From Oscillospiraceae bacterium (GTDB lineage: Bacteria > Bacillota > Clostridia > Oscillospirales > Acutalibacteraceae): DNA of 64,000 bases. Made by a program: the position numbers and the translations under genes. The stretch lies in assembly GCA_902792905.1 (NCBI GenBank), contig CADBBH010000007.1, positions 62,001-126,000 on the forward strand, written 5' to 3'. This document shows, piece after piece, positions 2,104-5,997 of this stretch (the stretch's first letter is position 1; every line of letters starts with the position of its first letter). Below the pieces are notes generated by a model. It did no database searches. It saw only the letters and a program-made list of their open reading frames with translations, and was not told the DNA's origin.

Positions 2104-2257
2104 CCTTGTAACTGTTCTCAGCAAGTAAGTGGACTGTATATACAATCAATTAATTGATTGCGCCCTTGCGAACAATCCCTGGCAAGCAAGGCGACTGTAT
2201 ATACAATCAATGAATTGATTGCTCCCTTGCATGCCGGAACAAAACCTGGCAAGCAAG
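2104..2257. repeat. 61-bp-period repeat with palindromes and CCTTGC/GCAAGG hairpins
   Basis: A 30-base unit beginning GACTGTATATACAATCAAT occurs at 2132-2161 and 2193-2222 with one mismatch, a period of 61 bases. In the first copy CAATCAATTAATTGATTG (2143-2160) is a perfect 18-base palindrome. Each unit is bracketed by a second motif in which CCCTTGC pairs with GCAAGCAAGG (2163-2191 and 2224-2257), and a diverged earlier copy lies at 2104-2129. The arrangement therefore alternates two hairpin types over two and a half periods. It may be a protein-binding array (recombinase or repressor) or the 5' part of a structured RNA. No protein frame is supported here. Confidence 0.75.
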
Positions 2258-2284
2258 GTCTCTGTTCCCACAGTCGCCCACTTG

Positions 2285-2497
2285 TTAGGGAAATGTCCCT
2301 AATACCCTTTACACATCATTGATAAATCAATGAGCCGGAAATGATGAATCATTTCATAAAGATCAGGTAGCAACTCGTTGCGAAGGACAGAGTCCTTTCT
2401 GATTGCAAAGCAATCTCAAAGTGAGCTAAGCCGAACGTTCCCGCAGGGCGCAATGGCACCGCAGGTGTATAATTGCGCATAACAAACAAGTTGTTAT
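2285..2497. other. Hairpin-packed non-coding region (possible structured RNA)
   Basis: There is no credible gene between 2037 and 2688. This part is nearly continuous short inverted repeats. They are TTAGGGA/TCCCTAA (2285-2302), CATTGA/TCAATG (2317-2332), GAAATGA/TCATTTC (2338-2355), GCAA/TTGC (2370-2381), AAGGAC-AGA-GTCCTT (2383-2397), GATTGC-AAA-GCAATC (2401-2415), CTCA-AAG-TGAG (2415-2425), CCC-GCA-GGG (2440-2448), a two-level GCGCAAT/ATTGCGC stem (2448-2478) enclosing CACC-GCA-GGTG, and ATAACAA/TTGTTAT (2479-2497). Many loops are exactly three bases. A terminator follows at 2527. I do not recognise a known RNA family, and no protein-coding explanation fits. Confidence 0.6.
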
Positions 2498-2526
2498 GGT
2501 TTAAGGTTTATTCTTAATAAAAAAGC

Positions 2527-2562
2527 AATCACAGTTCCCGGACCGGAGCTGTGATTCTTTGT
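2527..2562 (+). terminator. Rho-independent terminator after the hairpin region
   Basis: AATCACAG (2527-2534) pairs with CTGTGATT (2549-2556); the stem extends inward to 12 pairs around a 6-base loop and is followed by TCTTTGTTT. It lies just before the repressor promoter, so it would end a transcript covering the hairpin field. Confidence 0.75.
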
Positions 2563-2597: not shown

Positions 2598-2646
2598 TTG
2601 ACAAGGAGATAGTTGTGTGATATATTCTGTATTAGACGGTTGTCTA
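2598..2646 (+). promoter_or_regulatory. Sigma-A promoter with overlapping operator for the LexA-like repressor
   Basis: TTGACA (2598-2603) and TATATT (2621-2626) are separated by 17 bases. Directly downstream, at the expected transcription start, lies the inverted repeat TAGAC-GGTT-GTCTA (2633-2646). Its five-four-five geometry matches that of Firmicute LexA boxes, though the half-site differs from GAAC. Autoregulation by the adjacent repressor is the simplest reading, and is inference. Confidence 0.75.
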
Positions 2647-2688
2647 TTGCCGGTTGTTTTTGTATTTTTCTGTAAAGGATGATGTATT

Positions 2689-3273
2689 ATGATTTTCAAA
2701 ACAGCGGAAAAGAGTAAGATAATAATTGATTATGTTAATGAATATTATGATAAGTATTACCGCTCTCCTTCTCTGAGAGATATAGAAGCTGCCGTCGGTA
2801 TTCCGAGAGCAACAGTCGGTCTTTATCTGAATAATCTTAAAGCAGAAGGTGTCATAGATTATGACGGCAAAAGAGAAACAATTATCACAGACTATATAAA
2901 ATCGGTTGCGCAGAAAACTACAGAGAAGCTGAATATCGTAGGTAAGATAGCATGCGGTAATCCTGTGACAGAAGAAGAAACAAGAATCGGAACAATTGAT
3001 TTCCCGATTGCACTGCTAGGTTCGGGTGAATATTTTGTTCTGCAGGCATATGGTGATTCTATGATTGATGCCGGAATAGAAGAGAATGATCTGGTAATAG
3101 TCAGAAGACAATCTTCCGCCGATTACGGAAAGATTGTGGTTGCCATAGATGAGAATAACGAAAACACTCTCAAAAGATTTATGTATGACAAAAAGAAAAA
3201 GCGCCCGTATCTTCATCCCGAAAATGATAAGTATGATGACATTTATCAGAATGAAATAAAGATAATAAACTGA
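2689..3273 (+). CDS. LexA/UmuD-type self-cleaving repressor
   Basis: This 194-residue protein has an N-terminal LexA-like winged helix-turn-helix (SPSLRDIEAAVGIPRATVGLYL region, 26-47) and a C-terminal S24 peptidase-like domain. The Ser/Lys pair is Ser124 (GDSM) and Lys162 (TLKRF), 38 residues apart, as in LexA. The expected self-cleavage site is Cys89-Gly90 (GKIACGNP). Cys-Gly is the pair used by UmuD, whereas LexA uses Ala-Gly. Its place at the head of a recombinase operon suggests that it keeps the element silent and releases it on DNA damage; that role is inference. An AAAGGA ribosome site precedes the ATG. The next small ORF starts 7 bases after its stop. Confidence 0.88.
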   Translation: MIFKTAEKSKIIIDYVNEYYDKYYRSPSLRDIEAAVGIPRATVGLYLNNLKAEGVIDYDGKRETIITDYIKSVAQKTTEKLNIVGKIACGNPVTEEETRIGTIDFPIALLGSGEYFVLQAYGDSMIDAGIEENDLVIVRRQSSADYGKIVVAIDENNENTLKRFMYDKKKKRPYLHPENDKYDDIYQNEIKIIN

Positions 3274-3379: not shown

Positions 3380-3724
3380 TTGAAAGAAACTGATTTAAGC
3401 GAAGCAATCGAAAAAGCAGACGAAATATTGGAATATTACTACAAAAACCCAGATGAAGAAAACGCACCGTCACCTCCGCATGAAAACAATCTTGCGTCAT
3501 TTGATGAGAACGGAAATCTTACAGTCAAGAATCATGCCGCCTTCTGGCTGCCTGAAATAGAGATTGAAGATGAAGAGAAAAGCATTAAATATGTTGTTAA
3601 CGGAACTTACGACGGAAATTCATTTCTTCATAATAAACTGAAAAGGATTATCGACAATGTTGTAAATAATCTGAAAATGACCGATAATGACATTACCGGT
3701 CAAGAGGGCGAAAACAATGAATAA
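3380..3724 (+). CDS. Acidic hypothetical protein of the recombinase operon
   Basis: This 114-residue protein starts at a TTG eight bases after GAGGAG. It is strongly acidic, with a predicted helical N terminus (DLSEAIEKADEILEYYYK), a proline-rich linker near 30-36 and a central ENGNLTVKNHAAFWLPEIEIED segment. No catalytic motif, signal peptide or membrane segment is visible and I do not recognise a family. Its end overlaps the region upstream of the recombinase start, so the two are likely translated together. Small proteins in this position often act as directionality or accessory factors for large serine recombinases; assigning that here would be speculation. Confidence 0.65.
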   Translation: MKETDLSEAIEKADEILEYYYKNPDEENAPSPPHENNLASFDENGNLTVKNHAAFWLPEIEIEDEEKSIKYVVNGTYDGNSFLHNKLKRIIDNVVNNLKMTDNDITGQEGENNE

Positions 3725-3794
3725 GTTCTCTGACCGTAATGATATAGTAACCAACCCTGTATCAATGACAGTTGCCGCAGAAAAGGAGGAAAAA

Positions 3795-5549
3795 GTGAAT
3801 ACGGCAGCAAAAGCAAAAATCACAGCACTGTATTGCAGATTATCCCAGGAAGATGAACGCCTAGGCGAATCAATGAGTATTCAGAATCAGAAAGAAATGC
3901 TTCTGAACTATGCCAAAGAAAACAGATTTTCAAATCCGGTTTTCTATGTTGATGACGGATATACCGGAACCAATTTTGACAGACCCGGTTTCCAGCAGAT
4001 GCTTTCCGATATGCAAAACGGTAAAGTATCCGCACTCATAACCAAGGATCTGAGCAGACTCGGCAGAGATTCCACAATGGTCGGTTATTATCAGAAATAT
4101 GTATTTCCCCAGCTGGAAGTAAGATACATAGCCGTAAATGACAATTACGACTCTGCAAATCCCAACAGCACCGATAACGATATGGCGCTGTTCAAGAATC
4201 TGTTCAATGAGTTTTATCCGCTTGATACCAGCAGGAAAATTCGTGCTGTAAACCGTATGAAAGGCGAAAACGGAAAGACGCTCACTACAATGGTTCCGTA
4301 TGGATATGTCAAAGATCCTGACAGTAACCACTGGATTGTCGATGAAGATGCGGCAAAAGTTGTAAAGCATATATTCAGCCTTTGCTTAGAGGGCAGAGGT
4401 CCGAGTCAAATTGCCAAGCAGCTGGAATCAGAGAATATTCTGACACCTACAGCCTACAAAGCAGAAAAAGGCTTACCGTTAAACACTAAGGTCAAAGACA
4501 GTCCTTACAGATGGAAAAACTCCACTGTTGGTCATATTCTCGAACGAAGAGAATACACCGGATGCACAGTAGCTTTCAAGACATATACAAATTCAATCTG
4601 GGATAAAAAACAGAGGCAAAACCCGATTGAGAATCAAATTATCACTCCGGATACTCATGAAGCAATCATAGATGAGGATACATTCAACAAAGTTCAGATA
4701 ATCCGCGAAAAACGTCATCGCAGAACAAAGACAGGCAAAAGCCATATGTTTTCCGGCTTGCTTTACTGCTATGATTGCGGCAGTAATATGTATTTCTGCA
4801 CAACAAAGGACTTTGAATCAAGGCAGGATTTCTTTGAATGCTCGGTTCATCATAAAAATCACAGTGAATGCAAAACTCACTTCATCAGAGCAGAGGTTCT
4901 GGAGAGACTGGTTTGGGAACATCTTAAGGAAGTAATCTCGTTCGTTTACTGTCATGAGCCGTATTTCCGTGAATATATGAAACAGGTGAGCGAGAGTGTC
5001 AGCAAGCAAGAACTGAAGTCTCTGAAAAAGCAGTTTTCCCTTGCAGAGAATCGTATAGCGGAAATAGACAGACTTTATACAAAAACCTATGAGGATAATG
5101 CTAACGGCAAAATATCCGATGAACGATTCAAAATGCTTTCCGAAGGTTATGACTCAGAGCAGGCAGAACTCAAAGCAAAAGCAATACAGTTACAGAAACA
5201 GATTGATACACAGGAACAGAATACAGAGAATATTGACAGGTTTGTTTCACTTGTCAGATCTCACATAGAAGATGACGGTCTTAACGGCTACAATCTTCAC
5301 GAACTGATTCAGGGCATATACATCGAAAACGCAGATGTGCCTAATGATACAGACGGGAATATCGAGATTGATGATGACGACGGCGAGTGCATTGTTTATT
5401 CAAAGAAGCCGAAATTATCTTCTTCAAAGAAACACCGAATCCGTAAAATCCACATTAAATATGATTTTGTCGGATTCATACCCGTCAACAAGCTTCTGCA
5501 ATATGCCGAAGAATCAAAAAATGCCCAGAACAAAGAAATATCGGCGTGA
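3795..5549 (+). CDS. Large serine recombinase (TnpX/TndX-like)
   Basis: From the GTG start the protein has 584 residues. The resolvase catalytic domain comes first: Ser17 in ALYCRLSQED is the nucleophile, and DLSRLGRD carries arginines 88 and 91. A Recombinase domain follows, then a zinc ribbon with CYDCG and FECSVHH cysteines, a coiled-coil segment (ELKSLKKQFSLAENRIAEID) and a C-terminal DUF4368-like tail. The family integrates and excises transposons such as Tn4451 and Tn5397 through circular intermediates. GTG 3795 is chosen because AAAGGAGG lies 6 bases upstream; an in-frame ATG at 3717 with no clear ribosome site would add 26 residues. All catalytic residues are present, so it is likely active. 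Confidence 0.92.
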   Translation: MNTAAKAKITALYCRLSQEDERLGESMSIQNQKEMLLNYAKENRFSNPVFYVDDGYTGTNFDRPGFQQMLSDMQNGKVSALITKDLSRLGRDSTMVGYYQKYVFPQLEVRYIAVNDNYDSANPNSTDNDMALFKNLFNEFYPLDTSRKIRAVNRMKGENGKTLTTMVPYGYVKDPDSNHWIVDEDAAKVVKHIFSLCLEGRGPSQIAKQLESENILTPTAYKAEKGLPLNTKVKDSPYRWKNSTVGHILERREYTGCTVAFKTYTNSIWDKKQRQNPIENQIITPDTHEAIIDEDTFNKVQIIREKRHRRTKTGKSHMFSGLLYCYDCGSNMYFCTTKDFESRQDFFECSVHHKNHSECKTHFIRAEVLERLVWEHLKEVISFVYCHEPYFREYMKQVSESVSKQELKSLKKQFSLAENRIAEIDRLYTKTYEDNANGKISDERFKMLSEGYDSEQAELKAKAIQLQKQIDTQEQNTENIDRFVSLVRSHIEDDGLNGYNLHELIQGIYIENADVPNDTDGNIEIDDDDGECIVYSKKPKLSSSKKHRIRKIHIKYDFVGFIPVNKLLQYAEESKNAQNKEISA

Positions 5550-5563: not shown

Positions 5564-5627
5564 AATTCCTTGAAAATATTGGTTTTTCCGGTATTATCGT
5601 AAAAAGTCCAATAATACTGGTTTACGA

Positions 5628-5653
5628 CCCGCCCGATAAGGGCGGGATTTTTT
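5628..5653 (+). terminator. Rho-independent terminator
   Basis: CCCGCCC (5628-5634) pairs with GGGCGGG (5640-5646) around GATAA, and ATTTTTT follows. It ends plus-strand transcription leaving the recombinase and may also limit read-through from the minus-strand DUF1232 gene. Confidence 0.85.
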
Positions 5654-5667
5654 ACATGTTTGCGGTA

Positions 5668-5997
5668 TTATTTCTTCTTTTTGCGGGCTATGAATCTTGC
5701 TATCGCGAAGAGAATGGCGACAGCGTCAATTCCGAGATCGTCTAGGAAACCCAGGATAGGGGTTACATCCGGTACAATATCAACCGGGAGGATTGTGTAA
5801 ACTGCGGCGACAACAATCGCACCGATTCCCGCGAGAATACCGAGTGCGGACTTCTTCGGCAGTTTATCTTCCGCTTCGCCCTTTGCGGGCTCTTTCACCT
5901 GCAGTTCCTCCGTTTTTATCTCCGGAGCAAGATCCGCTCCGCAGAAAATGCAGTATTTTTCTGTCTCCACTTCTTTTTTGCATTCCGGGCAATACAT
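5668..5997 (-). CDS. Zinc-ribbon protein with YkvA-type DUF1232 membrane domain
   Basis: This 109-residue protein has an N-terminal zinc ribbon (Cys3, Cys6, Cys16, Cys19), an acidic linker, and a hydrophobic C-terminal part with the DUF1232 signature YTILPVDIVPDVTPILGFLDD. A poly-lysine tail closes it. DUF1232/YkvA proteins are small membrane proteins of unknown role found across bacteria. The ATG follows AAGGAGG with normal spacing. It is followed by a terminator on the opposite side and lies 30 bases downstream of the aldo/keto reductase gene, so co-transcription with that gene is likely. Confidence 0.82.
   Translation of the reverse strand: MYCPECKKEVETEKYCIFCGADLAPEIKTEELQVKEPAKGEAEDKLPKKSALGILAGIGAIVVAAVYTILPVDIVPDVTPILGFLDDLGIDAVAILFAIARFIARKKKK

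Follow-up and report, generated by a model that had tools for sequence, protein, structure and literature searches.

Several kinds of mobile DNA described so far bear on the locus reported here. Integrative and mobilizable elements (IMEs) and mobile genomic islands that carry no relaxase and only an origin of transfer (oriT) are documented, for example MGIVflInd1 and MTnSag1/tISCpe8 (PMC5704250). As far as the accessible text of that account goes, these have one oriT each together with a tyrosine integrase or a DDE transposase, and its Firmicutes cases are two tiny transposase elements in which the oriT is maybe fortuitous. How islands without conjugation genes move is presented as an open question in the accessible parts of PMC5704250 and PMC11389934. 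Carriage of more than one oriT is known from plasmids, namely staphylococcal plasmids with two to three pWBG749-type oriT variants served by a relaxase in trans (PMC4652767, PMC8136818) and multi-oriT plasmids such as pEC156 (PMC11389934, PMC7755788), the sites in the available portion of PMC7755788 being putative and predicted from DNA structure.

The window analysed here, a DNA stretch of 64,000 nucleotides, contains a string of small hairpins in the terminal region of a chromosomal element with a large serine recombinase. The string is probably a composite oriT on a relaxase-less integrative element, read in trans by relaxases of two families. Like the IMEs of PMC5704250, the element is integrative, has no relaxase and would depend on a helper whose relaxase reads its oriT; it differs from those covered in the accessible text in that its recombinase is of the serine type, it encodes an S24 repressor, and its oriT-like modules number two to four and belong to different relaxase types. 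With the staphylococcal plasmids it shares the presence of several oriT variants on one relaxase-less replicon, however, the sites in the accessible part of PMC4652767 are plasmid-borne variants of one oriT family, with the two-copy cases on opposite strands, whereas the present modules match different relaxase families, are adjacent within a few hundred bases and are chromosomal. Multi-oriT replicons such as pEC156, which in the parts of those sources available are plasmids, share the notion of a helper range broadened by several oriTs. IME_Rho_tet is likewise an integrative element of gut Bacillota with a serine recombinase but, in the available text (PMC12904643), is about 10.7 kb long and encodes a relaxase of its own along with mobC and a resistance gene. 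Thus oriT-only elements and multi-oriT plasmids are known already, while the joining of MOBP- and MOBQ-type sites in one oriT, carried by a minimal element with a serine recombinase, seems to be a variation on these not described before; the arrangement was not found described in the literature searched on oriT arrays and multiple oriTs, and a search for the motif strings, by title, gave no match on conjugation.

The element, its copies and its boundaries

The element spans ~3.4-3.6 kb and is ordered as hairpins, terminator, LexA/S24 repressor, 114-aa ORF and large serine recombinase (Table 1), a gene order that is conserved among the copies. The pointer in the preliminary description to adjacent recombinase genes was a good one.

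Table 1. Features of the element in the window (positions count from the first nucleotide of the window)
Feature	Position	Strand	Remarks
Left arm of module B, repeated	2121..2280	+	direct repeats; GCAAG(C/T)AAG unit found three times (2121, 2182, 2249), with a GTATATAC palindrome at 2121 and 2182
Core of module B, candidate MOBP-type oriT, CTTGTTAGGG-loop-CCCTAAnACCC	2281..2307	+	sole such site in the 64-kb window
Hairpin after module B, TCATTGATAAATCAATGA	2316..2333	+	present, with loop changes, in six of six copies holding that end
Linker hairpins GAAATGATGAATCATTTC, GCAACTCGTTGC, AAGGACAGAGTCCTT, GATTGCAAAGCAATC	2338..2415	+	order kept in five aligned copies
Module C, MobA/MobL (MOBQ-type) oriT-like region	~2419..2502	+	homology to L048:2826-2909
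Putative relaxase hairpin and nic-proximal sequence, CGCAATGGCACC-GCA-GGTG-TATAATTGCGC	2449..2478	+	likeness to L081
Hairpin CATAACAAACAAGTTGTTATG	2478..2498	+	kept in L048 with A-U to G-C double change
Terminator-like hairpin, T-runs on both strands	2527..2562 (hairpin 2527-2556)	.	between oriT string and repressor promoter
Promoter-like TTGACA, 17 nt, TATATT, and palindrome AGACGGTTGTCT at 2634-2645	2598..2645	+	sequence reading
LexA-type repressor, S24 autoprotease domain	2689..3273	+	Pfam PF00717, E=4e-22
114-aa ORF	3380..3724	+	95-98% identical in five relatives
Large serine recombinase	3687..5549	+	domains Resolvase, Recombinase, zinc ribbon, DUF4368
Right end region of element	5581..5650	.	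at terminator of convergent gene 5668-5997

A second copy in the host genome (C2:244539 onward) is 95% identical and ends at the contig end, and a diverged fragment of the string also lies on host contig C15. Beyond the host, a repressor scan of GTDB genome contigs found six loci (L013-L018) in five Clostridia MAGs; three of the records give water-buffalo rumen, goat omasum and sheep duodenum as the source. L014 begins inside the element and L018 is left-truncated, while the remaining four hold the string, which is present in six copies that retain that end (window, C2, L013, L015, L016 and L017) in four genomes. The string is rare: of 200 genomes of the family, the host alone yielded the window array, apart from a 26-nt match in G041, where the ORFs listed include no relaxase. 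Positions 2281-2562 of the window gave no blastn match in plasmids and phages, and the LexA query had no relative in viral contigs.

The element can be classed as relaxase-less and integrative in that a recombinase is present, an oriT is recognised by similarity and no relaxase is detected by three Pfam models: searches with PF03389, PF03432 and PF01076 gave no match inside or beside any copy, one side of C2, L014 and L015 being cut by a contig end. The repressor scores 102.5 bits against NCBIfam lexA, under the cut-off of 110.95. The 114-aa ORF has no match in Pfam, PHROGs or NCBIfam and its AlphaFold model is poor (pLDDT 40).

On the right, blastn homology to the window stops at 5581-5650 in the five loci reaching that end, and in the relative G485 chromosomal synteny with the window is found again from 5641, where the convergent neighbour has its terminator. 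G485 is the one relative obtained by an empty-site search and fixes the right flank only, its left neighbour being different. On the left, homology starts exactly at 2281 in L013, L015, L016 and L017, and the extent of shared DNA varies by copy: C2 shares DNA from 2176, and L015-L017 share longer, different DNA leftward among themselves. In all six right-flanked copies (window, L013, L014, L016, L017 and L018) the closest ORF listed points towards the element, whose end lies on the 3' side of that ORF; the right junction of the window copy (5581-5760 region) stands at the terminator of such an ORF, which suggests that terminators are the integration targets.

Structure of the hairpin string and its conservation

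The preliminary description reported about twelve hairpins from 2285 onward, involving almost every base, as far more structure than chance gives. Under a strict definition of perfect, non-overlapping hairpins (stem of at least 5, loop of 3-8), 2285-2562 holds seven, covering 120 of its 278 bases, against a mean of 1.4 hairpins and 22.3 bases and a maximum of 5 and 82 in 500 dinucleotide shuffles. Amongst 911 equal-length overlapping stretches across the 64-kb window, the richest in hairpins is the one starting at 2241. The RNA folding with shuffled controls that had been proposed gave z of -5.53 on the + strand and -4.45 on the - strand, DNA folding gave -5.68 and -5.37 respectively, and in each case none of 200 shuffles was as good on either strand. 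The excess of structure is therefore borne out, and the terminator was located where it had been described. The hairpins themselves are real, however, their count was generous, seven being strict and 11 helices being reached when short or imperfect ones are included, and 'almost every base' comes down to 43% of bases by the strict criterion. Structure also starts further left than 2285, where three repeats with spacings of 61 and 67 nt occupy ~2109-2280.

When the named helices were followed through the alignment of five copies, 98.2% of the cells were paired (slid controls 31-43%), and with L048 added as a sixth row, over a shorter C region, 99.0% (slid 29-46%), noting that the slid control favours a structure drawn from one of the aligned sequences. 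All nine pairs of the terminator are unchanged across five copies. In the linker, L017 drops four of the six pairs of the 2338-2355 hairpin and some hairpins are absent or altered in L048. Compensating base changes, the proposed check in homologues, do exist but are few: each alignment has two pairs changed on both sides, a number reached by 18 of 500 shuffles for the five copies and by 58 of 500 for the six rows. As most pairs never vary, covariation is suggestive at best as support for the structure.

Modules resembling relaxase-associated sites

Both modules of the window resemble sites associated with relaxase genes. Module B (core 2281-2307, arms from 2121) reads as an oriT of the mobC/PF03432 MOBP-type kind, where 'MOBP-type' is based on PF03432 matches or, for pRUMAL01, on its PLSDB typing and not on a tree, and may include MOBL relaxases as these appear in the accessible part of PMC5313138. 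Thirty PF03432 relaxase loci, taken from among all the matches in 38 of 120 genomes, were scanned with two substitutions allowed per half; CTTGTTAGGG..CCCTAAnACCC was present in 8 and absent from 22, while the reversed motif was found in none of the 30 and 20 rounds of shuffling gave 0 to 2 (mean 0.2). At seven of the eight loci the motif is upstream and in the orientation of the relaxase, L079 having it on the wrong side and strand. On alignment, these sites and the elements have a common layout, GCAAGC-palindrome-GCTTGTTAGGGG-loop-CCCCTAAnACCC, to which L068 and L079 fit least. Inverted repeats beside the presumed nic region are thus present in module B, with the palindrome of the third arm altered in the window; in the other copies the left arm follows GCAAGC-[palindrome]-GCTTGTTAGGG, the C2 copy being common from 2176 onward.

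In L034, L054, L057 and L068 a mobC/NikA-like ORF begins 4-46 nt after the motif; an ORF of 50-58 aa intervenes first in L055 (DUF3789), L056 and L061, and for L058 the downstream-ORF scan listed no ORF after it. In the Ruminococcus albus plasmid pRUMAL01, found by the plasmid search and typed MOBP, it precedes by 46 nt a MobC/NikA-like ORF, whose scores fall just short of both Pfam cut-offs, and the relaxase gene annotated there; the match in R. albus pRUMAL02 is outside the core and before no relaxase gene. Four Acinetobacter plasmids match weakly (E about 0.7) and in all four the match is 28-74 nt before an annotated mobC, amounting to two distinct mobC cases because three of the plasmids share one MobC accession. 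A Campylobacter coli plasmid also matches, in a stretch that carries no annotation. A strict module B pattern, which excludes the window's own shorter-stemmed copy, occurred once in 200 genomes, ~660 nt from a relaxase domain and in opposite orientation, and was not found in viral contigs. The motif CTTGTTAGGGG..CCCCTAAnACCC before mobC appears common to Clostridia and Acinetobacter plasmids and may be used to find further hitchhikers.

Module B was also seen alone. At L041:4083-4170 (G474:C18) it lies beside a gene with an HNH domain, with no relaxase among the listed ORFs, possibly marking another hitchhiker, and at L005:128-216, at the end of host contig C15, a diverged version adjoins a putative Fic-like ORF. 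The hairpin corresponding to TCATTGATAAATCAATGA trails the module at both sites.

Module C is read as an oriT-like region of the MobA/MobL MOBQ-type kind. It aligns with 84.7% identity over 85 columns to a stretch of L048 directly upstream of a MobA/MobL gene, the one intact locus at which such a homologue precedes that gene. The candidate nic hairpin of the window has an apical stem of 4 bp and GGTGTATAATTGCGCATAA, to be compared with the TAAGTGCGCCCT-like nic sequence of MOBQ-type oriTs; a Gram-positive oriT consensus, NcgtNtaAgtGCGCcCTta, is given in the accessible part of PMC10333310. In sequence and layout it is like the site of L081, before another MobA/MobL gene, which reads GCGCACGGCACCC-GAA-GGGTG-TATAAGTGCGCCCT. 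A stem-loop (stem of at least 5) followed by a TATAAGTGCGCCCT-like sequence was found upstream in 7 of 9 MobA/MobL loci versus 2 of 30 PF03432 loci, the nine being those with upstream DNA after seven more, with partial domain matches or contig edges, were dropped. This general MOBQ-type motif also has six chance sites elsewhere in the window and fits module C only weakly, and as proof for the module it was set aside as too loose. Since the 4-bp stem misses the threshold and six unrelated places pass, the assignment rests on the homology to L048. A 24-mer of module C had no exact match in viral contigs and, with up to 2 mismatches, was confined to the host among 295 genomes.

Modules B and C are both present in all six copies that retain this end. 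Module C varies between copies, a longer hairpin replacing the apical one in L013 with the flanks kept, and an insertion of about 127 nt splitting the hairpin in L015. The insert (L015:5650-5776) resembles hairpin-rich DNA of a Subdoligranulum variabile plasmid typed MOBV, in which a putative Mob_Pre-like ORF, read by eye, lies ~1.2 kb from that DNA. L015-L017, from two genomes, have two further sites: module A, which is MOBQ-type, and an additional module B in opposed orientation. Module A matches by blastn the DNA upstream of MobA/MobL genes in L045 and L046, and as a plasmid query it gave two weak matches. Sites like module A are also found at L042:647-690 and L043:53-96, on two short contigs (4.3 and 5.8 kb) of G476, in which neither MobA/MobL nor PF03432 was matched and no Mob_Pre hit exceeded the cut-off.

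A search of the host and five MAG genomes with the L016 string returned six places besides the elements: L048 (also L028), before the intact MobA/MobL gene; L044, which repeats the L048 locus in truncated form; and L005, L041, L042 and L043, at each of which a module stands alone and no relaxase was seen. Of these four, L042 and L043 are on contigs under 6 kb and L005 is at a contig end. Array queries against the 42 loci of the relaxase search matched seven (14 rows, E<=0.1) and reversed queries none; amongst the seven, L050 had been fetched by the motif itself and L073 looks like chance. The longer array of L015 gave five partial matches to plasmids and phages (E 1e-9 to 5e-2), one being R. 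albus and two phage-labelled. In the host genome the relaxases over cut-off are one PF03432 ORF of 200 aa and five Mob_Pre matches, no MobA/MobL match was obtained (the genome being 84% complete), and array-like DNA was found beside none of the four loci fetched of these six; consequently no helper is identified in the host strain.

Proposed composite oriT and alternative explanations

In the proposed mechanism, cleavage of the repressor, probably on DNA damage, would let the recombinase excise the element as a circle. The relaxase of a co-resident element, fitting module B or module C, would bind the folded arms, nick the DNA and lead one strand into the conjugation channel of the helper element, and in the recipient the recombinase would integrate the circle near the 3' end of a gene. 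A more specific proposal, which we hold tentatively and at somewhat less than an even chance, is that of a polyvalent oriT array, in which a minimal element, probably under SOS control, would collect oriTs of unrelated families so that many helpers carry it, the linker hairpins possibly serving in complementary-strand initiation. The basis for this proposal is the co-occurrence of MOBP- and MOBQ-type modules in the window and of four modules in three relatives (L015-L017). If it is true, the element would be a compact hitchhiker of Clostridia that lacks a relaxase, carries a serine recombinase and in which transfer sites and repressor specificity can both be swapped. A recombinase, a repressor and tandem differing oriTs in 3.5 kb would make a minimal and testable case of multi-helper hitchhiking in Bacillota.

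The main rival is that the element is a relic, descended from a mobilizable element that lost its relaxase and retains decaying, functionless oriT fragments. The lack of an identified helper relaxase in the host genome would fit such decay, as would the lone modules seen without a relaxase and the absence from the window copy of ~98 bp that L013 has between the repressor and the 114-aa ORF. Nevertheless we regard a relic as unlikely, as the arrangement recurs in six copies from four genomes with nearly all helix cells paired in the five aligned, and the loss of a single relaxase operon would leave fewer than the two to four differing oriT-like modules present. The idea of palindromic or ordinary scattered repeats, also raised in the preliminary description, fits in part, through the same lone modules, but the modules are ordered in six copies and stand before relaxase genes.

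The string is most likely not a new RNA. Its strong RNA folding and the terminator at its end are what a structured non-coding RNA or a regulatory leader of the recombinase operon might show, however, Rfam 15 (4227 families) has no match in the 64-kb window at the gathering score and none in 2000-2700 at E<=5, which leaves the suggested structured RNA unsupported. Moreover the terminator stands between the string and the promoter of the repressor, the modules are found singly, in both orientations and beside relaxase genes, and the DNA folds about equally well on both strands, so that we consider an RNA or leader highly improbable; such strings could, all the same, be mistaken for novel RNAs. 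The single-strand DNA folding site offered as another option was of the right kind, the hairpins matching relaxase-associated regions. Its place in the terminal region of a serine-recombinase element could also make the string an accessory site of the recombinase, such as attP arms or excision-regulatory sites. Large serine recombinases usually need short att sites only, which disfavours this explanation, and the same modules adjoin relaxase genes, while in the stretches examined of the four Acinetobacter plasmids no such recombinase is annotated; of the explanations considered we give it the least credence.

The repressor region differs between copies. Palindromes of the form nGACnnnnGTCn are found in the promoters of all six copies holding that region, and AGACGGTTGTCT in the window is a candidate operator of the S24 repressor. 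Between the window (2598-3273) and L016:5840-6585 the C-terminal part of the repressor is near-identical and the N-terminal DNA-binding part differs, and the palindrome varies along with the N-terminus, being AGACGGTTGTCT, TGACAGTAGTCA and TGACAACAGTCA in the window, L016:5840-6585 and L017:5850-6582, respectively; repressor specificity has apparently been swapped between copies. L015 has a gene for DinD (DNA damage-inducible protein D) between repressor and recombinase (L015:6619-7485), which fits the presumed SOS control. The DNA of L013 that is absent from the window copy would lie at 3264/3265, and the repressor ORF is 194 aa in the window and 205 in L013-L015.
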